Part shown: positions 1 through 19,987 of the stretch, piece by piece | How the letters are laid out: each line of letters begins with the position of its first letter | Numbering within the stretch: the first letter of the stretch is position 1 | Source of the DNA: Bacteroidota bacterium | Lineage (GTDB): Bacteria; Bacteroidota; Bacteroidia; Chitinophagales; Chitinophagaceae | Reading direction: 5' to 3' | DNA length: 64,000 bases | Assembly: GCA_947487525.1 (NCBI GenBank) | Contig: CANKWR010000006.1 | Span: 1 to 64,000 of the forward strand | Program-made: the position numbers and the translations under genes | Notes under the pieces: model-generated | Seen by the model: only the letters and a program-made list of their open reading frames with translations | Told to the model about the DNA's origin: nothing | The model's database searches: none

Positions 1-1553
1 TGACCAAAGTGGGTGGTGAGTGCCCCAGTTGGGAGGCAAATGGCATAGTAATACACTGGAGCTTAGGTGCAGCACATTTTACCTATGATGTTGATAAGAG
101 TTATGCCTTTGATGATAGTGTAGCTATGGCAAAAAAAGTGGAAGACTTAGCCAAGGATTTGGCTAAAAATGATACTACTAAAAAGGACTCCACCAACAAA
201 GACAACCTAGCAAAAAAAGTAGACAAAAAAGAAAGCCCCAAGTTTAAAGCAAGCGAACAATGGGTAAATGTATATTATGATAAAGACATTCCAACGGGTT
301 CAGTCCTGCTTAAAAATGCCAAAATCATCACCATGAATGGGGATGAAGTGATTGAAGGAGGGGATGTGTACATTGTAAACAACCGTATAAAAGGAATCGG
401 AAAATCAGGCACCCTAAAAACCGATGCAAACACTTCGGTGGTAGATGTTTCAGGTAAAACCATTATTCCTGGTTTTGTTGATACCCACGCACACATGTGG
501 CCTAGTTGGGGCATCCATAAAAATCAAGCATGGGTGTATGCAGCCAACTTGGCTTATGGCGTTACGACTACGCGTGACCCACAAACAGCCACTACCGATG
601 TACTTACCTATAGCGATATGGTAGAAGCAGGTTCCATGGTGGGGCCAAGAATTTATTCCACCGGTCCTGGTGTTGGCTACTGGTCCTATAATTTGAAGGA
701 TTCAGCTCAAGCAGAATCGGTATTGTCTCAGTATTCTAAATATTTTAATACCAAGTACATTAAAATGTATTTAGTAGGGAATAGAAAACAAAGACAATGG
801 GTCATTCAGGCAGCCAAAAATCAACAACTCATGCCAACCACGGAAGGTGGGCTTGATTTTAAATTGAATATGACTAATTTATTAGACGGCTATCCTGGTC
901 ATGAACATTCCATTCCAATTTATCCTTTGTACAATGATGTGATTAATACCATTGCAAAATCAAAAATGACGGTTACACCTACCTTGTTGGTTTCTTATGG
1001 TGGACCATGGGCTGAAAACTATTTTTATGAAACAGCCAATCCCTATAGTGATCAAAAAATGCAATTCTTTACTCCTTATGAAGAGCTTGCTTCTAAATCA
1101 CGTAGACGTGCTACCTGGTTTTTACCTGAAGAGCATGTGTTTCAAAAACATGCGCTTAGTATGAAAAACCTAGTGGAAGCAGGTGGATTAGCGGGTATTG
1201 GTAGCCATGGTCAATTACAAGGTTTAGGCTATCATTGGGAGCTTTGGTCTATGCAAAGCGGGGGTATGCGCAACCATGATGCACTAAAAGCAGCTACCAT
1301 CTTTGGTGCTGCTGGACTTGGCCTGGACAAGGATTTGGGTAGTATTGAAACCGGTAAGCTAGCCGACTTAATCATTTTAAACAAGGATCCATTAACGGAT
1401 ATTCACAATACCAACTCCATTCAATTGGTAATGAAAAACGGTCGTTTATACAATGGCGACAATTTAAATGAAACAGTGACTGGTAAAAAAGTATTGGACC
1501 GATCAGAATGGTTGGATAGTAAGCCGGTAAAAAATACCAATGTAAAAGATTAA
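1..1553 (+). CDS. Amidohydrolase-family protein, 5' end cut by window
   Basis: This is the C-terminal part of a metal-dependent amidohydrolase. The reading frame is open to base 3 (codons ACC AAA GTG GGT), so the gene begins outside the window and the GTG at 9 is not a start. The first ~35 residues (GGECPSWEANG onward) resemble the last blade of a TolB/PD40 beta-propeller, which in this family precedes the amidohydrolase domain. A Lys/Asp-rich linker follows (residues ~40-80). The TIM-barrel then shows the metal-binding pair VDTHAHMW, GHEHS, IGSHGQLQGLG and the C-terminal KLADLIILNKDPL strand that closes the small beta-sandwich. It is probably periplasmic or secreted and acts on cyclic amides or peptides, but the substrate cannot be read. 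A hairpin terminator follows. Confidence 0.85.
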   Translation, partial: TKVGGECPSWEANGIVIHWSLGAAHFTYDVDKSYAFDDSVAMAKKVEDLAKDLAKNDTTKKDSTNKDNLAKKVDKKESPKFKASEQWVNVYYDKDIPTGSVLLKNAKIITMNGDEVIEGGDVYIVNNRIKGIGKSGTLKTDANTSVVDVSGKTIIPGFVDTHAHMWPSWGIHKNQAWVYAANLAYGVTTTRDPQTATTDVLTYSDMVEAGSMVGPRIYSTGPGVGYWSYNLKDSAQAESVLSQYSKYFNTKYIKMYLVGNRKQRQWVIQAAKNQQLMPTTEGGLDFKLNMTNLLDGYPGHEHSIPIYPLYNDVINTIAKSKMTVTPTLLVSYGGPWAENYFYETANPYSDQKMQFFTPYEELASKSRRRATWFLPEEHVFQKHALSMKNLVEAGGLAGIGSHGQLQGLGYHWELWSMQSGGMRNHDALKAATIFGAAGLGLDKDLGSIETGKLADLIILNKDPLTDIHNTNSIQLVMKNGRLYNGDNLNETVTGKKVLDRSEWLDSKPVKNTNVKD

Positions 1554-1601
1554 AATTTACATCCTTCAAAGTAATTGCTCCATTCACTGGGCACGCTTTA
1601 T

Positions 1602-1634
1602 AAAAAAGCACAGTCATTATGATTGTGCTTTTTT
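1602..1634 (+). terminator. Rho-independent terminator
   Basis: A 13-14 bp stem (left arm 1602-1615, right arm 1621-1634, loop ATTAT) with one G-T wobble, A-run on the left arm and T-run on the right arm. It lies between the amidohydrolase stop and the acylase start and fits as the amidohydrolase terminator. The A/T symmetry means it could also work in the other direction. Confidence 0.8.
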
Positions 1635-1673
1635 ATTTTCCCTAACTTTAAGAACTCATCTCAAATTGTTTGT

Positions 1674-3995
1674 ATGAAATACATAATTCGTTTTTTTGCA
1701 TTTTGGTTGTTCATTACCACTACCCATGTGAGCCAAGCTCAAATTAATTTTAAACCAAAAAGTAAAAGCGACATTATTGCAAAGGAGCAGCAAAGATGGA
1801 AGCAACATGTTGCTCAAACTACCATTATTAGAGACGAGTGGGGCATACCGCATATTTACGGAAAAACAGATGCAGACGCAGTGTTTGGATTAATGTATGC
1901 TCAATGTGAAGAGAACTTTCCTCAAATTGAAAAAAATTATTTAGAAATGCTCGGCCGATTGCAAGAGCTTAAAGAAAATGATATTTCTCTATCAAAAAAT
2001 GAAGAGAAAATTTATGCCGATTTAATGATGAAACTAATACAAGACAGTGTAGATGCAATCAATGACTACAATAACAGTCCAGTATGGTTTCAGCAATTAT
2101 TACAGGCGCACGCCGATGGCATCAATTATTATTTATCGAAACATCCCAATGTACACCCCGAAGTAATCACCCAATTTAAACCATGGTATCATTTAATGTG
2201 GACGGATGGCAGTGTTTCCCCAACAAGAACAGGAGGAATAGAGGAAGCGGATGTTGCTTCGTTTTACGGACAGACCAAGGGAGCGGCAGCGAAAAATAAC
2301 ATCAGCCTATTGGCTCGTTTTGATATGGAAGAAAAAACATTAAAGGGCTCAAATGGTTTTGCCATTGCACCCATGCATAGCAAATCAGGCAATGCCATGT
2401 TGTTTATTAACCCACATGTCCCTTTTTATTTTAGATCAGAAATGCATATGGTAAGTGAAGAAGGATTAAACGTATATGGAGCAGTTACTTGGGGGCAGAT
2501 GTTTATATACCAGGGATTTAACGAAAATTGCGGGTGGATGCATACCAGCAGCTATGCTGATGTGGCCGATGTTTATGAAGAAAAAATAGCAAAAACCAAT
2601 GATGGTTTCAATTATGAGTACGATCAAAAGCAATTACCCATTGGTACACGCGATATTGAAATTAAATATTATGATCAAGGCGTTTTGAAATCAAAAATGT
2701 TTACTACATATAAAACACATCATGGACCCATCATGGGGAGCAAGGGGGATAAATGGTTAAGTTTACATGAAAACAATCGTTCCTTAAACGCTTTACTTGA
2801 ATGTTGGAATAGGACAAAATCAAAAAACATTGCAGAGTACACCACTGCTTTAAATTTACTTGCCAACAATAGCAACAATACCGTGTATGCCGACGCTCAA
2901 GGAAATATTGGTTATTGGCATGGCAATTACATGCCTAAAAGAAATGATCCAAGCTTTGATTATACCAGGCCGGTGGATGGAAGTATTAAAGGCACGGATT
3001 GGACTGGTGTGCATGCTTTAAATGAAATTGTTCAAAGTATCAATCCAGTCAATGGATGGTTGCAAAACTGCAATGCCACTCCATTTACAGTGGCAGGAAA
3101 AAATAGTCCGAAGCAGGAAAATTATCCAAGCTATATGGCACCAGATGGTGAAAATCCAAGAGGATTGAATGCAGTTCGTTTATTAGAAGGTATTGACAAA
3201 ATTAATTTAGATGAACTCATTCAATTAGGTTACAATAAACATTTAACTGCATTTGATATTGTACTTCCAACTTTTATTGCAGATGCAAGAAAAATACAAA
3301 AGGATTCGAGCAATGTAATCGGTGGTGAAAATTTAATGACCCCCGCTTTAGAAAAAGCAATTGGCTATTTAGAAAAATGGAATCATGATGCGGACACCAA
3401 TTCAATTGCACAAACCATTGCCATTATGTGGATGACCGAAATCAATAATCCTGCGGGTCCTTTTCCATTTAAACCAAGCACAGAGGAGGAGGGTACTAAA
3501 ATTGCAGAAAGATATACGTCGATCAATAAGTATCCAATCAATTTCAAATTAACCTGTTTACAAAAGGTGTTAACGAATTTAGAAACTAAATATGGTCAAT
3601 GGGAAATTCCTTGGGGTACGATCAATAGATACCAAAGAGTCAATCCAGGGGACTATTTTAATGACAAAGCCAATAGTATTGCAGTGGCACAAACCTCCAG
3701 TAAATTTGGACAATTACCCGCATTTGAAAGTAAAATCATGTCAGGTCCAAATAAAACAAGCACCTTAAAAAGATACGGCTACTCTGGAAATAGTTTTGTC
3801 GCCGCAGTTAGCTTTGGCAAAAAGGTAACCGCTAAAACCATTATCACAGGTGGCCAAAGCAGATGGGCAAATAACCAACATTTTACCAATCAGGCTCAAA
3901 TGTATGTTGACGGGAAATTTAAATCCATTCACTTTTACAAAGAGGATGTTTTAGCACATAAAGTAACATCATACAAACCTGGATTCGAAAGGTAG
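1674..3995 (+). CDS. Penicillin acylase family protein (Ntn hydrolase)
   Basis: Penicillin/acyl-homoserine-lactone acylase superfamily: hydrolyses an amide bond after autocatalytic cleavage into alpha and beta chains, usually in the periplasm. I chose ATG 1674 (773 aa) because it opens a signal peptide (FFAFWLFITTTHVSQAQ) and the upstream extension to 1623 lies in the terminator T-run. The alpha-chain start motif IIRDEWGIPHIYGKT is at residues ~51-65. The likely beta-chain nucleophile is Ser226 in GSNGFAIAP. GFNENCGWMHTSS and NNSNNTVYADAQGNIGYWHG are typical beta-chain segments. TAACTTTA at 1643-1650 resembles a -7 box. The last 61 bases overlap the convergent regulator gene. Substrate unknown; beta-lactam, AHL or peptide amides are all possible. 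Confidence 0.88.
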   Translation: MKYIIRFFAFWLFITTTHVSQAQINFKPKSKSDIIAKEQQRWKQHVAQTTIIRDEWGIPHIYGKTDADAVFGLMYAQCEENFPQIEKNYLEMLGRLQELKENDISLSKNEEKIYADLMMKLIQDSVDAINDYNNSPVWFQQLLQAHADGINYYLSKHPNVHPEVITQFKPWYHLMWTDGSVSPTRTGGIEEADVASFYGQTKGAAAKNNISLLARFDMEEKTLKGSNGFAIAPMHSKSGNAMLFINPHVPFYFRSEMHMVSEEGLNVYGAVTWGQMFIYQGFNENCGWMHTSSYADVADVYEEKIAKTNDGFNYEYDQKQLPIGTRDIEIKYYDQGVLKSKMFTTYKTHHGPIMGSKGDKWLSLHENNRSLNALLECWNRTKSKNIAEYTTALNLLANNSNNTVYADAQGNIGYWHGNYMPKRNDPSFDYTRPVDGSIKGTDWTGVHALNEIVQSINPVNGWLQNCNATPFTVAGKNSPKQENYPSYMAPDGENPRGLNAVRLLEGIDKINLDELIQLGYNKHLTAFDIVLPTFIADARKIQKDSSNVIGGENLMTPALEKAIGYLEKWNHDADTNSIAQTIAIMWMTEINNPAGPFPFKPSTEEEGTKIAERYTSINKYPINFKLTCLQKVLTNLETKYGQWEIPWGTINRYQRVNPGDYFNDKANSIAVAQTSSKFGQLPAFESKIMSGPNKTSTLKRYGYSGNSFVAAVSFGKKVTAKTIITGGQSRWANNQHFTNQAQMYVDGKFKSIHFYKEDVLAHKVTSYKPGFER

Positions 3996-4639
3996 TTTTC
4001 ATATAATTTTGAAATGCATGCAATTTTAACAAGCCCTGCTGCATTTTTAACATCAAATAATTGCATCATTTTGGTACGGTGTCCCTCTACTGTTCTTTTA
4101 CTATGCCCCAATTCAAAGGCAATTAATTTACTAGGGGCTTCTTGACAAATCCTGATTAATATGTATTTATCATACGTTGATAATTGATATACTTTGTCTA
4201 CGATTTGTAAACGGTCCATGTTATTGGCAAGTGCCTCCACCTTAATGGCAATATCATTGCTGAAAAAAACTTTCTCTTTTCTTGCCATTTCTATTCCTTT
4301 TAGCCACTCTTCTTTACTTACATTTCGAGAAACGATTACCGAAAAACCATTGTCAATGAGTTGGAAAAGTAAAAAATCATCAAACTCATTCAACACAACC
4401 ATAATAGGTATTTTATTTTTTAATAAATCCACCCAGCTTTTGTCTTTGACCTGAAAGCCATTGAACATTGCACTTTCAATGACCAAAATCCTAGGCATAT
4501 CATTGACCATGATGTCACTCAATAAACTTAACTTATCAATAATGAGCGCGGACCAACTTTCAGCATGTTTGTTAATTAACATGGCACTGCCCAAGGCATA
4601 CACTGGTTGTTGATCACAAATAATTACTTGACTGGTCAT
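3935..4639 (-). CDS. LuxR/NarL-type regulator with degenerate receiver domain
   Basis: A 234-aa response-regulator-like transcription factor. The C-terminal part (residues ~150-215) is a LuxR-type helix-turn-helix: LIAFELGHSKRTVEGHRTKM matches the recognition helix pattern (x-ERTVKxH). The N-terminal ~120 residues have receiver topology, but the expected phospho-acceptor strand reads RILVIESAMF, with Glu55 where Asp is usual, and the conserved Lys strand reads VIVSRNVSKEE with Arg. So the receiver is probably not phosphorylated by the standard route. The ATG at 4639 is well placed. The gene is divergent from the ATP-grasp pair and could regulate it. Its 3' end overlaps the acylase gene convergently; the last ~20 residues are encoded inside that overlap. 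Confidence 0.82.
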   Translation of the reverse strand: MTSQVIICDQQPVYALGSAMLINKHAESWSALIIDKLSLLSDIMVNDMPRILVIESAMFNGFQVKDKSWVDLLKNKIPIMVVLNEFDDFLLFQLIDNGFSVIVSRNVSKEEWLKGIEMARKEKVFFSNDIAIKVEALANNMDRLQIVDKVYQLSTYDKYILIRICQEAPSKLIAFELGHSKRTVEGHRTKMMQLFDVKNAAGLVKIACISKLYENYLSNPGLYDVTLCAKTSSL

Positions 4640-4872
4640 AAAGGAATTTTAATGAATTAAAACAAAGCAATAATTTGTAATAAATTGATATACAGTACAC
4701 TATACTGTTTGAATGGCAAATTGGTACATTGCAATTGCCCCTATCTACTTTGTCCTAAATAGGGTTGATAGCAACTATTTGCATAGCACTACCATCCTAC
4801 CTAAATAATGTGCTAAATAAATGGTGATTGTAATATCTTTTTATAACTTCAGACTATCTATTACTAACCCCT
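4640..4872. promoter_or_regulatory. Divergent intergenic region with inverted repeat
   Basis: The 233 bases between the regulator and the ATP-grasp genes hold no ORF I believe. They contain an inverted repeat at 4692-4708 (ACAGTA, 5-base spacer, TACTGT), a second with arms CCCTAT/ATAGGG around 4740-4770, and a near-consensus -7 box TATCTTTT at 4834-4841 for rightward transcription. The repeats are candidate operator sites for the divergent LuxR-type regulator; this is inference. Confidence 0.4.
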
Positions 4873-6003
4873 TTGACGAAAGCGTTGACAGCACTACGAA
4901 ATTTATTTTACCCCTTTGTCCCTGTTGGACATTTAAAAGTGTGGGTACTGGCACCAGCACTAAATAATCCGGATCCAAATTTGGCTTACTACTACGACTT
5001 TAGTCAAAGTATTGAAGAGTATACTCAAGTATTTTCTGAAATTGATATTCCTTGGAAATGGCAGCCCGTAACTTTAAACAATTACCAACAGATTGTTCAT
5101 GAAATTGATAGTGAGCAAAAAAAGGGGAAGTTTTTTCCTGTAGTACTCAACCTATGTGATGGAGATGAAATAAACGGCGCGCCTGGAATTTCTGTAATAG
5201 AAGCACTCAATAAAAAAAATATAGTGTACACCGGTGCGGATGCTTTTTTTTATGACATTACTACTTCTAAAATTCCAATGAAGCAAGCATTTGATAATGC
5301 TAAAATTAGTACGCCTAATTGGGAAGCGATCATGACGGAACAAATTAATCCCAAAGCATTATTAACCAATTTAGGTGCTCCAATTATTGTAAAGCCAGCC
5401 GTATCAGGTGGCAGCTTAGGCGTGGGTGTGAAAAATGTAGTAGAAACTGAGGAAACATTAATGACACAAGTACAAAAAATGTTTGAAGGCTATAGAGGAT
5501 GGGATCTAGCAGGGCAAGGGATTATAGCCGAATCCTTTATTGATGGGCCCGAATATACCATCATGATTGTGGGCAGTCATCATCAACCCGAAACAGCTAA
5601 AATATTTCCGCCCGTAGAACGCGTTTTTCATTCCTCCTTACCTGCAAAAGAAAAATTCTTGTCCTTTGATCGACTATGGGAAATTTATGAAGAAGAGTCC
5701 CCGATGCCCCAGGAGGAAAATTTTTATGAATATGCCATGCATCCAAATGAGCAACAAATAGAACTTCAAAAAATAGCATGGGATGCGTATGTTGCAGTAA
5801 AAGGAACGGGCTACACCAGAGTGGATGTAAGGGTAGATGCGCAAACAGGGACACCCTATGTGTTAGAAGTAAATGCACAGTGTGGCATTAGTAAGGATGA
5901 GAACTTTACTTCGATCGGCGCTATTTTGAGATACGCCAACCAAAGCTTTACTCAATTGGTCATCTACATTATTAATGATGCATTTGCTCGAAGAAGAAAA
6001 TAA
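4873..6003 (+). CDS. D-Ala-D-Ala ligase-like ATP-grasp enzyme
   Basis: A 376-aa ATP-grasp ligase resembling D-alanine-D-alanine ligase, which joins a carboxylate to an amine using ATP through an acyl phosphate. Visible elements: IIVKPAVSGGSLGV (ATP lysine Lys174 and the Gly-rich loop), ESFIDGPEYTIMI (~220-232), GYTRVDVRVD (~313-322) and LEVNAQCGIS (Mg-binding Glu332/Asn334). There is no ATG near the N terminus, so TTG 4873 (or TTG 4885) is the likely start. It differs from housekeeping Ddl in the Glu/Met-rich insert at ~250-290, so I infer a specialised ligase rather than the cell-wall enzyme. An 8-base gap separates it from the downstream ATP-grasp-SET gene, so they are probably cotranscribed and act in one pathway. 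Confidence 0.85.
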   Translation: MTKALTALRNLFYPFVPVGHLKVWVLAPALNNPDPNLAYYYDFSQSIEEYTQVFSEIDIPWKWQPVTLNNYQQIVHEIDSEQKKGKFFPVVLNLCDGDEINGAPGISVIEALNKKNIVYTGADAFFYDITTSKIPMKQAFDNAKISTPNWEAIMTEQINPKALLTNLGAPIIVKPAVSGGSLGVGVKNVVETEETLMTQVQKMFEGYRGWDLAGQGIIAESFIDGPEYTIMIVGSHHQPETAKIFPPVERVFHSSLPAKEKFLSFDRLWEIYEEESPMPQEENFYEYAMHPNEQQIELQKIAWDAYVAVKGTGYTRVDVRVDAQTGTPYVLEVNAQCGISKDENFTSIGAILRYANQSFTQLVIYIINDAFARRRK

Positions 6004-6011
6004 ATACCATT

Positions 6012-7451
6012 ATGCACCCCCTGCCCATCCTTGGAAATGCTGCCACTTTTAAAAATTTAAAAGTATGCGTACTGCAACCCGACTACTCAACTTCGGGAGT
6101 AGATTATCAGTATTATGATCCTAAAAGGGATTTGAGTGTCATTATGCCCGAAGCGCATATTGATCATGTTTTTTTAAATAAGCTTACCACTTACCAACAA
6201 CTAAAAAAATTAAAAGAAAACAACTATGACATTTATATTAACCTTTGCGAAGGATATTTAGAATGGAAAGTACCCTCTATTGACGTAATTACAAGTTTAG
6301 ATTTATTAGAGCTTCCTTATACAGGACCCAGCGCAAACTTATACGACCCTGCTAAAACAATCATGAAATACCTTGCATTTTGCGAGGACGTTAAAACACC
6401 AGCACATATCCTTATTGAAAGTAAAGATGCATTAAATCAATTACCCGGAAATTTAGTATTCCCGCTATTTGTAAAGCCCGCAAAAGCGGGGGATAGTTTG
6501 GGCGTGGATGAAGCTAGCAAGGTAAATAACCTAACTGATTTACACTCAAAAGTAACTGCAATCCTAGAGGAGTTTGGGGCTGCCTTGGTGGAAGAATATA
6601 TTGAGGGACGAGAGTTTACGGTATTGGTTTGTGCCCATGCGGATGGAAAAACCTGTACCAGGTTTACCCCGGTTGAATATCTATTTCCTGCGGGTTTTGC
6701 ATTTAAAACCTACGCATTAAAAACTTCTGAATTACATCCAAACGCCAATGTACCAGTAACCGACAATGTGCTTGCCAAAAAGCTAGAAGACATTGCCGAA
6801 CAAATATTCATGTCCTTTAACGGAGTAGGCTATGGAAGAATGGATTTTAGAATGAATGACAAGGGAGAAATATTTTTTTTAGAAATCAATTTTACTTGTT
6901 CTGTTTTTTATGCTGCTGGCTACGAGGGATCTGCCGATTATATTTTACAACACGATGGTGCTGGCCAACGAGGTTTTCTTGAGCGTATTATCATTGAAGG
7001 CATGGCAAGATTTAATCGGAAACAAAAAAAATATATTATTAAAGGCAATGCCATTGCGGGTTATGGGATGTATGCCAAATTTGATTTGCCTAAAGGGACC
7101 CTATTGTTTAAAGGAGAAGAAAGAGCACAGCGTATTGTCACAAAAAAATACGTAGATGAAAATTGGGATGAAAGAGAAAAAAATTATTTCAGAAGATATG
7201 CTTACCCAATTGGTAACAATGTATATATTTTATGGGCCCTAGAACCTGAAGAGTGGTCTCCTCAAAATCACCACTGTGATGCCAATTGTACATACGAAGG
7301 ACTCAACGTATACACGAATAGGGCCATTAAAAAAGGAGAGGAGCTTACCTTGGATTATGCGCAATTTTTAGACGATACCATGGAGCCTTTTGAATGTAGC
7401 TGTCAATCGCTCCATTGTAGAAAATTGATAACAGGTAAAGCTAGATCGTAG
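6012..7451 (+). CDS. ATP-grasp ligase fused to a SET methyltransferase domain
   Basis: A 479-aa two-domain protein. Residues ~15-330 are a D-Ala-D-Ala ligase-like ATP-grasp domain (FVKPAKAGDSLGV ~153-165, VEEYIEGREFTVL, GYGRMDFR ~273-280, FLEINFTCS ~289-297). Residues ~340-472 are a SET domain: IKGNAIAGYGMYAKFDLPKG (AdoMet-site N-flank), NHHCDANC (419-426, matching the NHSCxPN motif), GEELTLDYA (442-450), then a post-SET CxCx4C (Cys462, Cys464, Cys469) that with Cys422 could bind zinc. SET domains transfer methyl groups from AdoMet to lysine amines. The target here is unknown: it could be a protein or the ligase product. It follows another ATP-grasp gene by 8 bases. All SET landmark residues are present, so an active enzyme is likely. 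Confidence 0.88.
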   Translation: MHPLPILGNAATFKNLKVCVLQPDYSTSGVDYQYYDPKRDLSVIMPEAHIDHVFLNKLTTYQQLKKLKENNYDIYINLCEGYLEWKVPSIDVITSLDLLELPYTGPSANLYDPAKTIMKYLAFCEDVKTPAHILIESKDALNQLPGNLVFPLFVKPAKAGDSLGVDEASKVNNLTDLHSKVTAILEEFGAALVEEYIEGREFTVLVCAHADGKTCTRFTPVEYLFPAGFAFKTYALKTSELHPNANVPVTDNVLAKKLEDIAEQIFMSFNGVGYGRMDFRMNDKGEIFFLEINFTCSVFYAAGYEGSADYILQHDGAGQRGFLERIIIEGMARFNRKQKKYIIKGNAIAGYGMYAKFDLPKGTLLFKGEERAQRIVTKKYVDENWDEREKNYFRRYAYPIGNNVYILWALEPEEWSPQNHHCDANCTYEGLNVYTNRAIKKGEELTLDYAQFLDDTMEPFECSCQSLHCRKLITGKARS

Positions 7452-7458
7452 AATAGTT

Positions 7459-7800
7459 TTATAACTCTTCGATGCGCTTGGCCTTATCATCAATCACTAA
7501 ATCAAAATTGGGTTTGGTTGGACCTCCATTGGGACAGTAACCTGTAATTAAATCATTGAACTTACATCCCCACTTATTTAATTGGGATAAAGTCAACTCC
7601 TTTAAGTCCCGCTTCGAACTTTCACCCCTACCCGTCCAATAAGTGATATGCCAACCCTCCTCATATAACTTATTTATTTTAGCAATATTGTCAAAGTTAG
7701 GTTCTGCTAATTCATATACTCTTTTGTTTGTATAAAAACAGATGGTTTCATCAATGTCAATTAGTGCTTTCTTTGAACCAAACCTTATAGACTCTATCAT
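7459..7800 (-). CDS. Small HAD-superfamily hydrolase
   Basis: A 113-aa HAD-like phosphatase core. Motif I is ALIDIDETIC (DxDxT), motif II is the Thr in YWTGRG, and motif IV is LVIDDKA (DD). It lacks a cap domain. Such small HADs often occur with capsule or sugar-nucleotide genes as putative phosphatases. I use ATG 7800, not the TTG at 7830, because a perfect -7 box (TAAGTTTG on the minus strand, 7828-7835) overlaps that TTG and would start transcription just upstream of 7800. It is convergent with the ATP-grasp-SET gene, 7 bases away; a link in function is possible but not shown. Confidence 0.8.
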   Translation of the reverse strand: MIESIRFGSKKALIDIDETICFYTNKRVYELAEPNFDNIAKINKLYEEGWHITYWTGRGESSKRDLKELTLSQLNKWGCKFNDLITGYCPNGGPTKPNFDLVIDDKAKRIEEL

Positions 7801-7827
7801 TGTTATTTGATTTAGATAATTATTATG

Positions 7828-7835
7828 CAAACTTA
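7828..7835 (-). promoter_or_regulatory. -7 promoter box (TAAGTTTG) of the HAD gene
   Basis: Exact match to the Bacteroidota -7 consensus TAnnTTTG on the minus strand, about 28 bases upstream of ATG 7800. No clear -33 TTTG is seen. It decides the start codon of the HAD gene. Confidence 0.5.
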
Positions 7836-7878
7836 ACTATAATCCATAAATTACAATTCTCAATTATAAAAATACATT

Positions 7879-9969
7879 ATGTATAAACTTGCTCTAAAAA
7901 TAGGATGCCTGCTTTTGGTGTTTTTGAACGTTCAACCTGCTCAAAGTCAAATAAGCAGCAACCCAACAATTGATGTAAATAAAATTACCATCGCAAGAGA
8001 TTCTTTTGGGGTGCCCCATATTTTTGCACCTACCGATCCTGAAGTCGCTTACGGTGTTGCCTGGGCACATTCCGAAGATGATTTCAAAACCATACAAACT
8101 TTAATACTAACTGGTAAAGGAAAGCTATCCACTTATTTAGGGAAAAAAGGGGCTCCCGTTGATTTTGTAGTAGGTTTATTAAATACAAAAGCGACTGTTC
8201 AAGCGCAAATTGGACAAATGGATCCCAAGTTCATTGCATTGGTAAAGGGTTATTTAATGGGACTGGAAGCCTATGCAAAAGCAAATCCAAATGAAGTGCT
8301 TAACAAAAATGTATTTCCGATTACGATTGAAGAATATTTATCCGCTACCGTATTTTCAGTAGCCGTTTTTTGTGGGGTCGATAAAACATTGCCAAAAATT
8401 TTAAATGGAAGTATCCCTTCTTTAGCTGGATTTACCGGAGAGGGAAGCAACGCATTTGCAATTCATTCAAGTAAATCAACGACAGGTGAAAATATGTTGG
8501 TGATTAATGCACATCAACCCATTGAAGGTGCTACCGCTTTTTATGAAGCACATGTACAAAGCGAAGAGGGTTGGAATATATTAGGAGGACTGTTTCCAGG
8601 TGCCCCATTAATTTTTCATGGCGTTACACCCAATTTTGCTTGGGCACATACAGTAAATTTTCAAGATAAAATTGACGTATTTCAATTGCAAACCGACAAA
8701 GCACACCCAGGTGAATACCAGGTGGACGGAAATTGGTTAAAATTAGAAAAGCGAAAAGTTAAATTAAATATTAAAGGCCTTCCTTTCCCAATTTATAAAA
8801 AAGTGTACAATTCTATTTATGGACCTACCGTTGCAACGCCAAAAGGTGAATATTTTTCAATGAGATTGCCTTCCTTAATGGATGCTGGCGCTTTACAACA
8901 ATGGTACGGAATGAATAGAGCAACGAATTTCACCAGCTTTAAAAAAGCATTGGAACAAAATCATTTACCCATGTTTAATATTATGTATGCCGATAATAAG
9001 GATACGATATTTTATATTTCTAATGGAAAAATGCCTTACCGTAATCCAGACACCGCCTATCATTGGAATAGCACCGTGCCGGGCAACACCATGGCTACCT
9101 TATGGACTCAATTTAAATCCTTAAGCGAATTACCTCAACAACTTAATCCTGCGAGCGGTTATTTATTTAACACCAACCACTCTCCTTTTTTAGCAACCGA
9201 TGAGCAGTATAATTTAAATCCAAAAAATTATGATGTCAATGATGGATACGAAACCTATCATAACAACAGAAGCCGTCGTGCAAAAGATTTAATTGATCCT
9301 CTTGCAAAAATTAGTTATGAGGATTTAAAACGTATTAAGTTTGATAGAAACCTACCCTCAAAAATTTTATTCCCTTATGGATACAATGCAGATAGTATGT
9401 TCCTAGTGAATGAAAACAATTATCCTGCATTGGCTCCAATTATCACTACTTTAAAAAATTGGGATCATGCTGCAGTAGCAGATAGTAAGGGAGCTGCCAT
9501 TTATAATATCGCTTATTACTTAGTTCCACAAATAATGGAAGGAAGAAAAAATGACCACCTCACCCTACAAGAAGCAATTACTGTTTATCAAAAAATTGAC
9601 GATTACCTTAAAAAACATTTTGGACGCACTGATATCGTTTTAGGTGATTTACAAAAATTAGTAAGGGGGGACGAAAGTTGGCCACAGGGAGGCATGCCGG
9701 ATGTATTGGCAGCAGTAATGAGCGAACCCTATAAGAATGGTACTAGAAAAATGAATAGTGGGGATGCCTATATTAACATTGTGAAATTTCCGAAAGACGG
9801 TAGCTTGCCGCATATTGAATCCATCAATACATTTGGAGCAAGTATGCATAAAGAAAGCCCCCATTTCGCTGACCAAAGAGCCATGTATCAAAGTCAAACC
9901 TTAAAACCGATGACCTTGGACAAAAATGAAGTCATTAAAAAAGCAGAAAAAATTTACCATCCGCAATAG
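7879..9969 (+). CDS. Penicillin acylase family protein (Ntn hydrolase)
   Basis: A 696-aa secreted acylase, second of three in the window and clearly diverged from the one at 1674. Signal peptide MYKLALKIGCLLLVFLNVQP, ending AQSQ. Alpha-chain motif ITIARDSFGVPHIFAPTD (~36-53) and probable autocatalytic site GEGSNAFAIHSS with Ser190 as beta-chain N terminus. PNFAWAHTVNFQDKIDVFQLQ and MYADNKDTIFYISNGKMP are family beta-chain segments. This shorter form resembles the acylase group that includes AHL and aculeacin acylases; that subgroup call is tentative. It is transcribed alone and ends at a strong shared terminator at 10001-10033. Confidence 0.88.
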   Translation: MYKLALKIGCLLLVFLNVQPAQSQISSNPTIDVNKITIARDSFGVPHIFAPTDPEVAYGVAWAHSEDDFKTIQTLILTGKGKLSTYLGKKGAPVDFVVGLLNTKATVQAQIGQMDPKFIALVKGYLMGLEAYAKANPNEVLNKNVFPITIEEYLSATVFSVAVFCGVDKTLPKILNGSIPSLAGFTGEGSNAFAIHSSKSTTGENMLVINAHQPIEGATAFYEAHVQSEEGWNILGGLFPGAPLIFHGVTPNFAWAHTVNFQDKIDVFQLQTDKAHPGEYQVDGNWLKLEKRKVKLNIKGLPFPIYKKVYNSIYGPTVATPKGEYFSMRLPSLMDAGALQQWYGMNRATNFTSFKKALEQNHLPMFNIMYADNKDTIFYISNGKMPYRNPDTAYHWNSTVPGNTMATLWTQFKSLSELPQQLNPASGYLFNTNHSPFLATDEQYNLNPKNYDVNDGYETYHNNRSRRAKDLIDPLAKISYEDLKRIKFDRNLPSKILFPYGYNADSMFLVNENNYPALAPIITTLKNWDHAAVADSKGAAIYNIAYYLVPQIMEGRKNDHLTLQEAITVYQKIDDYLKKHFGRTDIVLGDLQKLVRGDESWPQGGMPDVLAAVMSEPYKNGTRKMNSGDAYINIVKFPKDGSLPHIESINTFGASMHKESPHFADQRAMYQSQTLKPMTLDKNEVIKKAEKIYHPQ

Positions 9970-10000
9970 CAAACTGCTCCATTAAAATAAAGTACTTATT

Positions 10001-10033
10001 AAATAGTTACAGCCTAGCTGTAACTATTTTTTT
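10001..10033. terminator. Bidirectional terminator between convergent genes
   Basis: A perfect 13-bp stem (10001-10013 and 10017-10029) with a 3-base CTA loop, A-rich on the left and a T-run on the right. It stands between the rightward acylase and the leftward dehydrogenase, and overlaps the last codons of the latter. Confidence 0.85.
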
Positions 10034-11274
10034 ATCTAAAATAGCCTTGGTATCAAAAATAATGGCGTCCGCTTCCTTTTTTAAATTAGCATAATCTAAG
10101 GAAGTAAAAAAATCATGTGCTACTGTAATCACAATTGCGTCATATTTTTCCAATGAAGTGACTAATTCAATGCCGTGTTGTTCTTTAACTTCGAGGGCAT
10201 CCGCAAAAGGGTCAAAAACTGCAACATCCATTTCCTGCCCTTTTAAGAAATGATAAATATCAAACACTTTTGAATTTCTAATGTCTGGACAATTTTCTTT
10301 AAACGTTACCCCGAGCAATAACACTTTCGCAGCTTTTACTGGTTTATTGAATTGCGTAAGTAAACGAATTAATTTATTGGCAATAAATCCACTCATGGCA
10401 TCATTTACATTACGTCCCGACAAAATCACCTGTGGCGTATGTCCGAGCTGAGTAGCTTTATGGGCCAGATAATAAGGATCTACCCCAATGCAATGCCCGC
10501 CTACCAAACCGGGTTTAAAAGGTAAAAAATTCCATTTAGTGGCGGCGGCAGCCAATACCTCATAGGTATCCACATGCATCTTATCAAAAATCAAGGCCAA
10601 TTCATTTACAAATGAAATATTAATGTCCCGCTGTGCATTTTCAATTGCCTTTGAAGCTTCTGCCACTTTTATACTACTCGCTTTATGTGTTCCGGCTTTG
10701 ATGATAGTGCCGTATAAATGATCAATATAATCGGCTGCCTCACTCGTGGAGCCTGAAGTAACTTTTACAATATTGGTTAAGGTATGCATTGTATCACCCG
10801 GATTAATGCGCTCGGGAGAATAGCCAACAAAAAAATCGGTATTGTATATTAATCCACTTATGTTTTCTAAAATAGGAACGCAGTCTTCCTCGGTACAACC
10901 AGGATACACGGTACTTTCATAAATAACGATATCCCCTTTTTTAAAATACCGCCAAGCATTTGAGTAGCTGTCAATAACGGATTTAAATTAGGTTGCTTTT
11001 TTGCATCTACCGGAGTGGGCACAGTCACAATGAATATTTGACAATGAGCGATATCCTCCAACTGATGGGTAAAAACCAATTTATCCGCATGTTGAATTTG
11101 AGTAGTACTGCATTGTAAGGTATCATCTATCCCATTCATCAATGAATCCACTCTTTTGGAATGGATATCAAATCCAACAACGGTATATTTTTCAGCAAAT
11201 GCAACAGCAAGCGGTAGGCCAACATAACCTAGTCCGATAATTGCAATTGTTGGATTATGATTTGAGAAGCTCAT
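10007..11274 (-). pseudogene. Nucleotide-sugar (UDP-GlcNAc/GalNAc type) dehydrogenase, frameshifted
   Basis: One gene read in two frames. Residues from 11274 (MSFSNHNPTIAIIGLGYVGLPLAVAF, an NAD-binding Rossmann start) run to ~10940. The rest of the enzyme continues in another frame (IVIYESTVYPGCTEEDCVPI onward) to 10007. The catalytic region GGHCIGVDPYYLAHKA, with the Cys nucleophile, is intact, as is the C-terminal UDP-binding domain. GGHCIGVDPYYL fits the UDP-N-acetylhexosamine 6-dehydrogenase branch (TviB/WbpA/WbpO-like). The break is at the homopolymers T6 and C4 (10933-10942); one extra base there restores the expected KKGDIVIYEST. Everything else looks under selection, so a sequencing indel or a very recent mutation is likely. 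Its neighbours are not a polysaccharide cluster. Confidence 0.85.
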
Positions 11275-11298
11275 ATAAATCCAAAGGTAAAGGACAGA

Positions 11299-12186
11299 TT
11301 AATGATGTCCATATTTTTTTTCACCCGCGGGTATGGCTATAGAGAGTCTATTTTGAGCAGGGGGTAATGGGCAGGTGGCAAAATCGGTAAAGGCACATGG
11401 TGGATTATAGGCTTTATTAAAGTCAATAAATGTATTGCCCGCTGCATCTGGCATTTCAACGTCAATAAACCTGCCTGATACGTAAGTTTGTTTCCCACTA
11501 GTAGCATCGGCAAAAGCAACGAATAAGGTATTCCCTCCTTCAATAATGGCATCTAAAGTATACTCCACTCCATCCATTTTAAAATGTAATTTTCCACCCG
11601 TTTTTTGCGCGGTAGTCTGTCCCAATACATTTGAAATCAAAATAAAATCCTGTGCCGGCTTTTCCAATTTTGCTTTAATGCGCCATTTACTTTGTACCGG
11701 ATAGTAGTCCAACCCTTTAAATGTTTTCAATAGTGGCGCTTTATAATTTCTAAAGCGTATTCCAATTTTATCTTCTCTTTTTATTACAACCCAATTAAAA
11801 TGCGACCAATCCATAGAGGCAGCATTTCCTGCAGCATTGAAAACCGTAATAGGCGTTTGTCCACTATATCGCTTACCATTGATGGTAATTGCCTTGTTTG
11901 GACTATTTTGCCAACGAACCGAATCGCCTTCATATATAAAAGAACCCAGTGTTGCAGGAAAGGTTGAATTAGGATAATAGGCATTTGACGCAGGATCACT
12001 TCCAAAACTATTCACCCCTTTATTAAACCAAAATAGCCCTTCTAAATTTAACCATCCGTCTGGTTGTTTTAAATAGGCCGCTCTTTTTACATGCCAATCA
12101 TTAATGGATTGGACATACTCGTTTTTTTGACCATAACCCCTCATCGTTGCAATACATAAAAACAAAACGATCCAAAAACGATTCAT
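11299..12186 (-). CDS. DUF1684 family secreted protein
   Basis: Matches the DUF1684 pattern: an N-terminal WHVKRAAYLKQPDGWLNLEGLFWF segment, central beta-rich region, and the C-terminal FNKAYNPPCAFTDFATCPLP with conserved Asn-Pro-Pro-Cys and Cys-Pro-Leu-Pro, then NRLSIAIPAGEKKY. Biochemical function is not established. ATG 12186 begins a signal peptide (NRFWIVLFLCIATMRGYGQ) and sits 28 bases below a perfect -7 box (TATCTTTG, 12214-12221 minus), so the longer frame to 12216 is rejected. Probably exported to the periplasm. Confidence 0.85.
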   Translation of the reverse strand: MNRFWIVLFLCIATMRGYGQKNEYVQSINDWHVKRAAYLKQPDGWLNLEGLFWFNKGVNSFGSDPASNAYYPNSTFPATLGSFIYEGDSVRWQNSPNKAITINGKRYSGQTPITVFNAAGNAASMDWSHFNWVVIKREDKIGIRFRNYKAPLLKTFKGLDYYPVQSKWRIKAKLEKPAQDFILISNVLGQTTAQKTGGKLHFKMDGVEYTLDAIIEGGNTLFVAFADATSGKQTYVSGRFIDVEMPDAAGNTFIDFNKAYNPPCAFTDFATCPLPPAQNRLSIAIPAGEKKYGHH

Positions 12187-12213
12187 ATAATTTGTTTTAG
12201 CCATTTTAAAAAT

Positions 12214-12221
12214 CAAAGATA
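12214..12221 (-). promoter_or_regulatory. -7 promoter box (TATCTTTG) of the DUF1684 gene
   Basis: Exact TAnnTTTG match on the minus strand, correctly spaced for ATG 12186. No TTTG -33 box is evident. Confidence 0.5.
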
Positions 12222-12320
12222 ATGAAATTTATATTAGTCTATTGTTTTAGTAGGATTCTATACTGAAATGCTTTGGCTGACCTTATGGATTTACTTATTA
12301 TTTTGTACCTTGGAATGGCA

Positions 12321-12782
12321 ATGAAACAGGCATTGAAATTTTTAATGGTAAGCGTATGCTTGATGATGGTAAAGGATAGTCAAGCACAAATCAGCAAGGA
12401 CAAAGCACGTATTAACCATACCGCCATTTATGTAATGGATATTGCTAAATCGGGCAATTTTTATAGCAAAAGAATTGGATTGGATACCGTAGCGGAACCC
12501 TTTCATGATGGAAAACATATTTGGTATAAAACAGCCGAACATACCATGTTACATGTAATAGAAGGTGCTTTGGCAAAAAGGGAATACTATAAAAATCAAC
12601 ACACTTGTTTTACAGTGTCTCATTTTGAGCAGTTTGTACAAAATTTACTAAAGGACCAATGGCCATTTGAAGACGTAGTAGGTAATAAAAATAAAATTAC
12701 CACCAGAGTAGATGGCGTCCATCAAATTTGGCTGCAGGATCCCGATGGATATTGGATAGAAATAAATGACGATCCTTTTTAA
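12321..12782 (+). CDS. VOC (glyoxalase/dioxygenase) superfamily protein, exported
   Basis: A 153-aa protein with a signal peptide (MKQALKFLMVSVCLMMVKDS, then QAQ) followed by one VOC module. INHTAIYVMDIAKSGNFYSK is the first beta-alpha-beta unit with a His metal ligand, HTCFTVSHFEQFVQNLL the second, and LQDPDGYWIEINDDPF the last strand with a Glu ligand. VOC proteins bind a divalent metal and catalyse isomerisation, epimerisation or dioxygenation; which one cannot be told. A secreted VOC protein is less usual. ATG 12321 is chosen because it opens the signal peptide; the upstream TTG 12273 is implausible. First gene of a short rightward run to 14988. Confidence 0.82.
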   Translation: MKQALKFLMVSVCLMMVKDSQAQISKDKARINHTAIYVMDIAKSGNFYSKRIGLDTVAEPFHDGKHIWYKTAEHTMLHVIEGALAKREYYKNQHTCFTVSHFEQFVQNLLKDQWPFEDVVGNKNKITTRVDGVHQIWLQDPDGYWIEINDDPF

Positions 12783-12830
12783 TTGGTTTACCCATTTTAT
12801 TTGAATTACTTTAATTATCTATAAGTGTCT

Positions 12831-13709
12831 ATGAAAAGAAAATATTTTTTTATGCTCATCGCTTGCATTTGTATGCTCAATGCCAATGCGCAGGGTAAAG
12901 TGTTGACAAAACAAATAATCAAAAGCAATATCTTACAAAAGGAAGTGCATTACACCATTTACTTACCGGAGGGTTATGAGAAAAATGAAAGAAAATATCC
13001 TGTAACTTATTTATTACATGGCCATGGTGATGCCGACGATGGTTGGGTACAATATGGAGAAATTAACCGTTTAGCAGATGCCGCTATCAAAAAGGGGACC
13101 ATACCTCCTATGATTATCGTGACCCCCGATGGCTTTAAAAGCTTTTATATGAACGCGGCAGATGGATCCATGAATTATGAAGATTTTTTTATTCAAGAAC
13201 TCATTCCGCATATTGAAAAAACCTATAAAGTTAAAAGTGAAAAACGATTTAGAGGCATCGCAGGATTGTCCATGGGAGGTTACGGCAGTTTACTGTATGC
13301 ACTTAAATACCCGCAATTGTTTGTGGCAGCAGCCCCATTAAGCGCTGCAATATGGACCAATCATGATTACGAAAATATGGCTGAAAGTATGTATGGAGCT
13401 TATTTTGCGGGAGTTGTCGGAAAAAATTTAAAGGGTAAAGAACGTTTAACGCCTACTTGGTATGCAAATAGTATATTTAGTATTATTGATAAAAAAACAA
13501 CTGAAGAATTGTCGGCCGTGAAATATTGGATTGATTGCGGCGACGATGATTTTTTGACCATTGGAAATGCTCAATTGCATATTAGTCTCACCAATAAGAA
13601 AGTGCCACATGAATTTAGAATGAAAGACGGGACACACAGTTGGTCCTATTGGAGAATGGGGGTTATTGATGGACTTTCTTTTATTGGAGACAATTACAGA
13701 TTAAAATAA
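12831..13709 (+). CDS. Secreted esterase (alpha/beta hydrolase, esterase D-like)
   Basis: A 292-aa putative esterase. Signal peptide KYFFMLIACICMLNANAQ. The nucleophile elbow is GLSMGGYGSLLYALKYP. The oxyanion-side loop is TYLLHGHGDADDGWVQYG. The catalytic Asp is probably in DCGDDDF and the His in KDGTHSWSYW. The pattern is that of feruloyl or acyl esterases such as EstA/FrsA-type enzymes in polysaccharide degradation. ATG 12831 is preferred over GTG 12825. The next gene starts 4 bases after the stop, so they are likely cotranscribed. Confidence 0.87.
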   Translation: MKRKYFFMLIACICMLNANAQGKVLTKQIIKSNILQKEVHYTIYLPEGYEKNERKYPVTYLLHGHGDADDGWVQYGEINRLADAAIKKGTIPPMIIVTPDGFKSFYMNAADGSMNYEDFFIQELIPHIEKTYKVKSEKRFRGIAGLSMGGYGSLLYALKYPQLFVAAAPLSAAIWTNHDYENMAESMYGAYFAGVVGKNLKGKERLTPTWYANSIFSIIDKKTTEELSAVKYWIDCGDDDFLTIGNAQLHISLTNKKVPHEFRMKDGTHSWSYWRMGVIDGLSFIGDNYRLK

Positions 13710-13713
13710 TTTT

Positions 13714-14208
13714 ATGGAAAAAGATATACAGGTTTTTATTACAGGGGGCACATTTGACAAGGAGTATAATGAATTAAATGGTAGCCTTTATTTTAAGGAA
13801 ACACATTTATATGAAATGCTTGAACTAGGCAGGAGTAAACTTAATTTATCTATTGATACTTTAATGATGAAGGATAGTTTAGACTTTGTGGATGCGGATA
13901 GGGCTTTAATTGCCGCCGCTTGTAATAATACGAACATCAGCAAAATATTAATCACGCATGGTACCGATACCATGACCTTGACTGCCGATTATTTAAAAGA
14001 AAAATGTACCGAAAAAACAATTGTACTCACAGGTGCCATGGTTCCATACAAATTTGGCAGTAGCGATGGGTTGTTTAATTTAGGAAGTGCACTCGCATTT
14101 GCTCAAGTATTGCCGCCCGGTGTGTATATTGCTATGAATGGAAAAATATTTGAAGCAGGGAAAGTAAGGAAGAATACAGACAAAGGTGAATTTGAAAAAT
14201 CAGCCTAA
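13714..14208 (+). CDS. Single-domain asparaginase-like protein
   Basis: A 164-aa cytoplasmic protein equal to the N-terminal domain of L-asparaginase only. FITGGTFDKEYNE carries the first catalytic Thr motif (TGGT), ILITHGTDTMTLTADYL the second (HGTDT), and VLTGAMVP follows. The C-terminal domain present in ~330-aa asparaginases is absent, and no remnant lies downstream before the GDPD gene at 14218. Short asparaginase-domain proteins of this size exist in many bacteria, so this is probably a natural short form, not a truncation. Activity on asparagine is uncertain. Confidence 0.83.
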   Translation: MEKDIQVFITGGTFDKEYNELNGSLYFKETHLYEMLELGRSKLNLSIDTLMMKDSLDFVDADRALIAAACNNTNISKILITHGTDTMTLTADYLKEKCTEKTIVLTGAMVPYKFGSSDGLFNLGSALAFAQVLPPGVYIAMNGKIFEAGKVRKNTDKGEFEKSA

Positions 14209-14217
14209 ATTAACAAC

Positions 14218-14988
14218 ATGCATAAAATAATATTAGTCATTCTTAGTTTTTACACCATGAACACGGGCATTGCACAACATAACACCAAAATCATTGCACA
14301 TAGAGGCGCGTGGCAGGAATATGGTTTACCCGAAAACTCCATTGCTTCCTTACAAAAAGCCATTGAGCTCGAATGTTATGGTAGTGAATTTGATGTAAGG
14401 CGCACCAAGGATGGTGTTTTGGTGGTTTGTCATGACCCTGTTTATTATGGAGATACCATAGAACTTATGAATTATGCCGACCTCAACAAAAAAAAATTAA
14501 GCAATGGGGAAGACTTACCCACTTTGCTTGACTATTTTAAAAAAGGCAACATTGCAGGTTCAAAAACTAAATATATTTGTGAAATTAAGCAGGCGGTCAC
14601 GGACAAATCATTAGATAAAATTGCAACAGCAGAAGTCATGCAAATGGTCAAGAAATTAGGCATTGCTAAAGACTTGGTTTTTATAAGTTTTCGTTTTGAA
14701 ATTTTAGAATGGATCAAGGAAATAGATCCCCAGTCAATTGTTTTATACTTGGAAGCCGATAAAGACATCAATGCAATTAAAAAAGCAAAATTCGATGGCA
14801 TCAATTACCACTATAGTCATTACTTAAAAAACGAAGGCATTGGTAAGGAAGCCAAGTTCAATAATCTAATGCTCGGAAGCTGGACCGTAAATGAGGAAGC
14901 CGTTTTAAACTCCTTGATGTTACAGGACATAGCCTTTATTACGACCAACACGCCCATTGCATTTAAAACCTATTTAAAAAAGCAATAG
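14218..14988 (+). CDS. Glycerophosphodiester phosphodiesterase family protein
   Basis: A 256-aa GDPD. Signal peptide to QHNTK. IIAHRGAWQEYGLPENS has the catalytic His-Arg and Glu-Asn motif, GSEFDVRRTKDGVLVVCHDP the metal Glu/Asp pair and the second His, and YICEIK a later Glu. MLGSWTVNEEA and the terminal INTP-like FITTNTP close the barrel. It hydrolyses glycerophosphodiesters to glycerol 3-phosphate and an alcohol, probably in the periplasm. Last gene of the rightward run from 12321; its stop almost touches the convergent gene at 14990. Confidence 0.9.
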   Translation: MHKIILVILSFYTMNTGIAQHNTKIIAHRGAWQEYGLPENSIASLQKAIELECYGSEFDVRRTKDGVLVVCHDPVYYGDTIELMNYADLNKKKLSNGEDLPTLLDYFKKGNIAGSKTKYICEIKQAVTDKSLDKIATAEVMQMVKKLGIAKDLVFISFRFEILEWIKEIDPQSIVLYLEADKDINAIKKAKFDGINYHYSHYLKNEGIGKEAKFNNLMLGSWTVNEEAVLNSLMLQDIAFITTNTPIAFKTYLKKQ

Positions 14989-14989
14989 G

Positions 14990-15451
14990 CTACTTATATC
15001 TTGTGTCTATGAGGTATTGAATTTTCCAGCCTTCCTTTAATTGAACAAGTTGAAAAGAGTTCACCCCACGGTGTGAATACTTGTCTTTGTAATAAAACTG
15101 ATACGGCGTCCATACAATGGCAAGCTCCTTGTTGGTTTTGACAGTTTCAAATTCAATACGTTCGTCAAGGGAACCCGCTGGTTGTTTTGCCACACTGATC
15201 AAAAAATCTTGCACTGATCCATTTTGTACAACCACTTCGTATGGTTTTGAAACAATGGTTTGAAAAATAGCAGTACTGCTAAAACATTGTTTTAAAGCAA
15301 GCGTATCGCCCTTTTTCATAGCATTAAACATATTTTGAACAACGCTCTTTACCGCTTCAATTTCTTTTTCATTGGCAATGGCTGTTTGAGCATTTAACAT
15401 AACGCTAGCGCTCATACTTATAAAAACAAACAATAATAATTTTTTATACAT
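14990..15451 (-). CDS. NTF2-like (SnoaL/DUF4440-type) secreted protein
   Basis: A 153-aa protein with a signal peptide (KLLLFVFISMSASVMLNAQ) and an NTF2-like cone fold. VKSVVQNMFNAMKKGDTLAL is the first helix, CFSSTAIFQTI the next strand, and VNSFQLVQLKEGWKIQYLID the closing strands. Bacteroidota code many such exported NTF2-like proteins; some bind small molecules, and no reaction can be assigned. It is convergent with GDPD with one base between. Confidence 0.78.
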   Translation of the reverse strand: MYKKLLLFVFISMSASVMLNAQTAIANEKEIEAVKSVVQNMFNAMKKGDTLALKQCFSSTAIFQTIVSKPYEVVVQNGSVQDFLISVAKQPAGSLDERIEFETVKTNKELAIVWTPYQFYYKDKYSHRGVNSFQLVQLKEGWKIQYLIDTRYK

Positions 15452-15555
15452 AAGGGATATTTAGAATTTTAAAAATCATTTTAAAATTTGATGTTGATTT
15501 TGTATTTTGACGACAATTTATAACAGTTTCACTAAATATATATTCCAGTCCTTTA

Positions 15556-16851: not shown

Positions 16852-16928
16852 AAAATGTTTGTTAATTAATAGGCATTAAAGATAAAGTATTAAACCTTTG
16901 TTATAAAGTATTGTCTAATTTTATAACT

Positions 16929-17471: not shown

Positions 17472-17504
17472 ACTTTAATAACAATAGAAGGTCAAAATAA
17501 CACA

Positions 17505-17963: not shown

Positions 17964-17991
17964 ATTAAAATCATCCTTTCAAAACAACACT

Positions 17992-18405: not shown

Positions 18406-18416
18406 AATAAAAACAA

Positions 18417-19934: not shown

Positions 19935-19987
19935 GATGATAATAATAAATTAATAAATTTTAAAAGCGTTTAATTAGAATATATAAA

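Follow-up and report, generated by a model that had tools for sequence, protein, structure and literature searches.

The SET-domain enzymes are best known as methyltransferases of protein lysines in eukaryotes, and RimK and TTL enzymes add amino acids or peptides to proteins. A characterised SET exception acting on a small molecule is BurB of Burkholderia thailandensis (PDB 9l4t and 9l4v) which, according to the available text of its descriptions, S-methylates free methionine with S-adenosylmethionine (AdoMet) to give S-methylmethionine, and feeds the formation of dimethylsulfoniopropionate (DMSP) and gonyol (PMC7496086, PMC12542666). In the same available text, S-methylmethionine is named as a DMSP precursor (PMC12542666) and the discoverers of BurB state that natural-product methyltransferases had until then been known only in classes I and III (PMC7496086). 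As for the combination of a SET domain with an ATP-grasp-type domain, the sole protein that we found named in the open full-text literature is the eukaryotic TTLL12, whose N-terminal SET-like and C-terminal tubulin-tyrosine-ligase-like domains are both described, in the part of the source available, as lacking critical residues (PMC3520985). Here, we describe a gene of a Bacteroidota bacterium, located on the first 64,000 nucleotides of contig CANKWR010000006.1 (the window), in which the order is the opposite of that in TTLL12: an N-terminal ATP-grasp domain of the D-Ala-D-Ala ligase (Ddl) type is joined to a C-terminal SET domain. From its conservation and its gene neighbourhood, we hold with moderate confidence that the fusion would be a bifunctional biosynthetic enzyme, acting within a conserved pair of ATP-grasp ligases in the making of a small methylated amide-linked metabolite.

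Both halves of the fusion protein (Table 1) exceed their Pfam cut-offs, Dala_Dala_lig_C on residues 136-293 with 75.0 bits against 24 and SET PF00856 with 41.9 bits against 22.4. Together with the single reading frame, this bears out the first-pass annotation of the window, made from the letters alone, which had described one 479-residue protein combining a Ddl-like ATP-grasp domain with a SET domain. The SET landmarks that it had listed are also all present, namely NHHCDANC, GEELTLDYA and CSCQSLHC, the latter an exact CxCx4C motif. In 28 aligned fusions, N419, H420, C422, N425, E444, L445, T446, L447 and Y449 are invariant, as are the post-SET cysteines C462, C464 and C469. In a wider set of 39 fused rows (24 of type A and 15 of type B, as defined below) the post-SET motif is found in all 39; some type B rows deviate from NHxC with DH or EH, and the motif patterns missed NHxC or ExTxxY in some of the 39. 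The fused SET part is under purifying selection, with a nonsynonymous rate (dN) of 0.084 and a synonymous rate (dS) of 1.26 against the relative L004 (ratio about 0.07), and 0.165 and 1.27 against L008 (ratio about 0.13), dS being near saturation; these values cover the SET part of the fusion, the ATP-grasp part having given no computable dS. The predicted full-length model has a mean predicted local distance difference test (pLDDT) score of 82.9, and its listed structure matches reach residue 372 at most, i.e. the ATP-grasp half.

A frame or assembly error joining two genes is ruled out, because a scan of genome contigs recovered the fusion, whole or cut by a contig end, at no fewer than 41 other loci (L004-L044, 53-87% identical, two genomes giving two pieces each), one of which is in the cultured Ferruginibacter paludis CECT 8366 (L034), and because the fusion is also present in the same-genus genome G009, assembled as a single contig. 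When 80 loci derived from search hits were examined, 76 passed the thresholds set for the fusion. The bacterial fusion is apparently undescribed. No description was found in the full text of 5.39 million open papers, a search outside which most subscription papers and all bioRxiv preprints lie, and the open literature on a SET domain with an alanine ligase in bacteria yielded only papers which, by title and abstract, deal with other subjects. The available text of a 2014 review of bacterial SET proteins (PMC3980110) holds no mention of ATP-grasp, ligase, fusion, domain architecture, Bacteroidetes or Gemmatimon. The first-pass annotation, which knew of no characterised example and allowed for an earlier description, agrees with these results as far as bacteria are concerned, TTLL12 being a eukaryotic precedent for the domain combination.

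Compared with solved structures, the profile of the fused SET matched MLL1 at 1.9e-13 over 129 positions and BurB at 2.9e-12 over 59. It aligns with the MLL/KMT2 histone H3K4 methyltransferases over GxG, NHSC, EELTxDY and the post-SET CxCx4C, but it differs from them in being bacterial and in carrying a SET-I insert of another kind, with many conserved W, F and Y residues. The label of a eukaryote-type SET domain proposed at first therefore holds for the motifs, with BurB matched as well. The premise of the first interpretation, namely that protein lysines are the usual substrate of SET enzymes, does not decide the matter for bacteria. SET genes are rare in the control genomes, where they were found in 1 of 14.

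The ATP-grasp half retains K155, S162, E194, E201, R276, D278, E291 and N293, invariant in 14 aligned rows (alignment A3), three of which are Ddl-like proteins from relatives, so called because of their similarity. With the Ddl enzymes it has the fold and the Pfam match in common, but from these and other ATP-grasp amino-acid ligases it differs in the attached SET domain and on the substrate side: in the comparison with the same three proteins, the Ddl tyrosine after K237 is replaced by T in type A and by W in type B, and no residue corresponds to the N-terminal glutamate of Ddl. We take these positions to correspond to E15 and Y216 of E. coli DdlB. The NCBIfam model TIGR01205 gave 81.2 bits where its cut-off is 245.65, and among the best 25 of the 36 matched NCBIfam models none reached its curated cut-off. 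These differences in residues and scores argue for a ligase, predicted to be active, with substrates other than D-Ala, and on the same two grounds a housekeeping Ddl was rejected. An altered D-Ala-D-Ala ligase of cell-wall synthesis, which the fold and the Pfam match would allow, is hardly credible given these differences, and contig C73 of the window's genome carries another Ddl-like match, apart from the fusion.

To compare gene neighbourhoods, L026 and L044 (contig-cut), L171 and L172 (unfused) and two copies at least 98% identical (L115 and L152) were dropped from the 80 loci, which left 74 fusions (L024 and L042 being two pieces of one metagenome-assembled genome, MAG). Type A, the kind to which the fusion of the window belongs, comprises 57 loci in addition to that of the window itself: 24 of the window's clade and 33 others, of which 21 form a Bacteroidota-sample group and 12 are from Gemmatimonadota. 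The Bacteroidota-sample group includes L040, which is labelled Sphingomonadales and has Bacteroidota as tree neighbours. The remaining 17 loci are of type B, with proteins 32-37% identical to that of the window in the six rows aligned. A separate ligase gene, ATP-grasp-1, adjoins the fusion on the same strand at 55 of the 57 type A loci, the other two being L042, a contig-end piece, and L119; it stands next to none of the 17 type B fusions. In the window it lies in tandem with the fusion (Table 1) and was absent from the first-pass annotation.

Two further partners recur. A small SET gene, counted within 6 kb of the fusion or fused to it, is present at 15 of the 33 other type A loci (14/21 in the Bacteroidota-sample group and 1/12 in Gemmatimonadota) and at 6 of the 17 type B loci; at L165 and L169, of the Polyangium-phylum sample, this BurB-like SET is the third domain of the fusion polypeptide. 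An ATP-binding cassette (ABC) transmembrane protein is encoded directly downstream at 15 of the same 33 type A loci (13/21 and 2/12), as judged by Pfam PF13748 in L028 and L030 and by a profile of seven such proteins in the others. A complete ABC exporter stands beside 4 of the 17 type B loci, all of one genus, recognised in L122 with Pfam and NCBIfam and in the other three by nucleotide-binding motifs and position. When neighbours within 5 kb were clustered, with ATP-grasp-1 genes and open reading frames (ORFs) below 110 residues excluded, the top partner was the small BurB-like SET (23/23 co-directional, 16 clades), followed by the ABC membrane protein (15/15 co-directional and downstream), the next cluster having only 7 members. 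As controls, 38 distant ATP-grasp loci (3-18 kb each) and the surroundings of 12 unfused close relatives (within 5.5 kb) gave no match to the small-SET, fused-SET or ABC membrane profiles. NCBIfam at 1e-5 had no name for the small SET or for the ABC membrane protein of L028.

Sequence, profile and Foldseek E-value all place the small SET nearest to BurB among solved structures. As a single sequence its closest solved relative is BurB (3.4e-13), its profile has BurB as best PDB match (4.1e-20, the next being 1.2e-8), and its predicted model (mean pLDDT 87.3) returned the BurB-SMM-SAM structure first in Foldseek (2.7e-10, against 5.9e-7 for the best match other than BurB). Its likeness to BurB extends over the SET fold and the post-SET cysteines. 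The BurB residues T73, Q75, H81, P85, H93, C95, P97, Y124, S126 and E128 align, as read by eye, with positions invariant in 11 partner sequences (alignment A2), H93 corresponding to H80 in 11/11 and Y124 to the invariant Y111; the AdoMet contact H138 falls on a variable position. In the available text on BurB, the Y124A variant is almost inactive and Y124F keeps more than 60% of activity, and methionine is contacted through main-chain atoms (PMC12542666), so that, as far as this source goes, residue identity cannot tell whether the partner uses methionine. The closest solved relative does not mean the same substrate. The fused- and small-SET profiles are homologous (probability 98.9), but the fused SET of the window belongs to a separate branch (92/89) and is joined to a ligase, where BurB stands alone.

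The sequences themselves show two domains with conserved catalytic-type residues, a conserved ATP-grasp-1 neighbour of type A fusions, and the recurring SET and ABC partners of other loci; the two activities, the class of substrate, the order of the steps and export we infer. The SET domain would use AdoMet to methylate an amino-acid-type substrate, on a side-chain amine or sulfur, the ATP-grasp domain would activate a carboxylate as an acyl phosphate and join it to an amine, and the partner ligase ATP-grasp-1 would add or supply another residue. Methylation and ligation would be physically coupled, their order being a guess. The product would be a small metabolite with an amide link, probably cationic owing to a methylated ammonium or sulfonium group, and perhaps exported where the ABC protein is present, which is likewise a guess. 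Where the small second SET is present, it would supply a further methylated building block, on the model of the conversion of methionine by BurB. That ligation and methylation belong to one pathway, as first proposed, is supported by conservation and synteny. Between the two options offered at first, a small product ligated and methylated or a protein substrate, the wider context fits the former better, although neither partner gene accompanies the window's own clade. The small-molecule product is favoured because a SET of the BurB family recurs, because BurB acts on a free amino acid and because ABC-type membrane proteins recur; the context thus suggests small methylated molecules, made by a route so far undescribed, and not modified proteins, as the outcome.

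Several observations weigh against the fusion being such a biosynthetic enzyme. The match of the fused SET to MLL-type histone methyltransferases is longer than its match to BurB, and two other SET proteins encoded in the window's genome (88% complete) are without the post-SET cysteine motif. In the window's clade the small SET (0/24) and the ABC membrane protein (0/24) are both absent, most type A loci of Gemmatimonadota are without these partners, and 11 of the 17 type B loci have no small SET. In the copies scanned, L028 and L030, the ABC protein of type A has a transmembrane domain alone, which makes its transport role unsure. For the small SET, the TM-score margin is thin (0.62-0.63, query-normalised, for BurB and 0.59 for ASH1L, the latter with a lower root-mean-square deviation), and, as read by eye, L and Q occupy the positions of the BurB AdoMet contacts H72 and R133. 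In the window's clade, the ligase pair may have its partner encoded elsewhere or may make a simpler product; the genome being 88% complete, absence from it is no proof.

An unlikely alternative is protein modification, in which the ATP-grasp domain would add an amino acid or peptide to a protein and the SET domain would methylate a lysine of that protein or the added residue. The closeness of the full-length fused SET profile to MLL1 and the lack of a small-molecule partner gene in the window's clade speak for it, but the clustering of neighbours gives no widely recurring candidate substrate protein, the partner SET is BurB-like, ABC-type membrane proteins recur and the distribution is patchy. 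A SET half acting as a catalytically dead scaffold, as reported in the available text for TTLL12, is very improbable: its loss from unfused relatives does indicate that it is dispensable in some lineages, but its SET and post-SET residues are invariant in the 28 sequences and its dN/dS is low, even with dS near saturation.

The two ligases and the SET domain could also produce a methylated, zwitterionic dipeptide that stays inside the cell as an osmolyte or storage peptide, a role comparable to that of N-epsilon-acetyl-beta-lysine or DMSP. In agreement with this, a GNAT acetyltransferase and a lysine-2,3-aminomutase-type gene neighbour the ATP-grasps at 4 of the 38 distant loci, and S-methylmethionine is, in the source available, a DMSP precursor; but ABC-type membrane proteins beside the fusion point to export and the aminomutase loci belong to a separate tree clade, so we regard this explanation as quite improbable. 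At these four loci (L045 7803-11567, L047 1952-5095, L070 2318-6481 and L066 3-3086; families were scanned for L045 and L070) the ATP-grasps are followed by the acetyltransferase and the aminomutase-type gene, and they are paired in three of the four. They possibly represent a separate ligase pathway acting on beta-amino acids, and no paper on ATP-grasp, aminomutase and acetyltransferase together was found in the open literature. A weaker aminomutase-like gene lies about 5 kb away at the type B locus L164. A link to lysine through the aminomutase neighbours is a hint.

The fusion is conserved and widespread in Bacteroidota, Gemmatimonadota and Myxococcota, with one occurrence in an Acidobacteriota genome. 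In addition to the fusions, the scan of genome contigs gave at least 38 ATP-grasp-only loci (L045-L082). Within the genus, 16 of 36 genomes, own genome excluded and some of them incomplete, carry the fusion, a patchy spread as for an accessory pathway; order-level relatives gave 0/23. Phylum samples were drawn evenly, a profile built from 28 fusions was run on them, and matches over the full length were counted at 1e-30 for the phyla of the window, L043 and L063 and at 1e-40 for those of L062, L052 and L068; phylum labels follow the database names of these centre loci, and a MAG may be mislabelled or contaminated. The fusion was found in 17 of 395 Bacteroidota genomes, own included (15 more with ATP-grasp only), 16 of 150 Gemmatimonadota (L043; 4 more), 7 of 140 of the Polyangium phylum, Myxococcota (L052; 2 more), and 1 of 149 Acidobacteria (L062; 2 more), the single Acidobacteriota occurrence being a weak case. 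In the Planctomycetota sample (L068) it was found in 0/149 genomes, with 13 ATP-grasp-only matches, and in the Povalibacter phylum sample (L063) in 0/299.

An ATP-grasp tree of 75 chosen rows, midpoint-rooted, included 24/57 type A (the window included as L083), 15/17 type B, 11/12 unfused and 12/38 distant loci. Type A rows form one group (100/99), and type B together with the unfused forms is sister to it (100/99), the 11 unfused rows, 7 of them from the planctomycete sample, being nested inside type B. Since the fused and the nested unfused forms join at 95/87, the simplest reading would be one old fusion followed by losses of the SET domain; some inner forks are weak (e.g. 82/42). A SET tree with the same fused rows (7 of its 73 rows are exact copies; the small SETs of L095, L096, L115, L117 and L127 and those below 60 bits are omitted) separates fused SETs of both types from small SETs at the 92/89 given above, with fused A (70/92) and fused B (86/21) each weakly supported.

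Around the fusion, other genes were noted. Two penicillin-acylase-family genes (1623-3995 and 7879-9969) flank the ligase pair, as also at many window-clade loci; both have weak PvdQ similarity, below the curated cut-off, and are not among the recurrent partners in the clustering. After the fusion the window has no ORF (7451-7459) where other relatives have one or two, and in L004 (9493-11032) 3-keto-disaccharide-hydrolase-like and TMEM164-like genes lie between the fusion and the next gene. A TviB-like nucleotide-sugar dehydrogenase at 10007-11274 on the minus strand seems split into a 300-residue ORF, which matches the model from position 122 on, and an adjoining 135-residue ORF; relatives such as L005 have a single 423-residue ORF, and the split appears to be a frameshift or assembly error. 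Elsewhere, L121, L122, L123 and L125 have a second small SET (118-120 residues) after the ABC exporter, giving three SET domains per cluster, and genes which we take from their sequence to be MATE-like efflux genes lie near the fusion in four clades (L126 11694-13091, L140, L142 and L147), on the same strand in two of the four. A phage or plasmid gene was rejected, as known phages and plasmids gave no tblastn match at 1e-20 in either collection, and so was an anti-phage defence protein, PADLOC giving 0 families for P0001 and one weak match (17.8 bits) for P0002; on the L122 exporter it matched only ATPase-type models. Rfam gave nothing at gathering score in window positions 1-20000 or in the loci of nine relatives.

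Table 1. Position of the fusion gene, its domains and the adjoining ligase gene in the window.
Feature	Position	Strand	Remarks
ATP-grasp ligase-SET methyltransferase fusion gene	6012..7451	+	479 aa, ATG start, uninterrupted ORF
ATP-grasp domain, D-Ala-D-Ala-ligase fold	6057..7025	+	about residues 16-338, bounds set by hand
SET domain	7059..7358	+	Pfam residues 350-449; motifs GYG, NHHCDAN, EELTLDY
Post-SET cysteine motif CSCQSLHC	7395..7418	+	residues 462-469
ATP-grasp-1, separate ligase gene	4873..6003	+	376 aa, listed start TTG (real start uncertain), ends 8 bases before the fusion

In several phyla, this conserved family combines a SET domain and a peptide-type ligase in one protein, with a BurB-like partner at many loci, and it offers a testable case for a wider methylation of small molecules by the SET fold in bacteria. 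It defines a compact gene cluster as a candidate source of a new metabolite. We propose tentatively, and with more doubt than belief, that this compact pathway, with SET methyltransferases either fused to ATP-grasp peptide ligases or encoded next to them, could make a new class of bacterial metabolites in several phyla, namely methylated (sulfonium or ammonium) amide-linked conjugates of amino acids. If this were true, the SET domain would have a wider role in bacterial small-molecule chemistry, and histone-type protein methylation would be only one of its uses.
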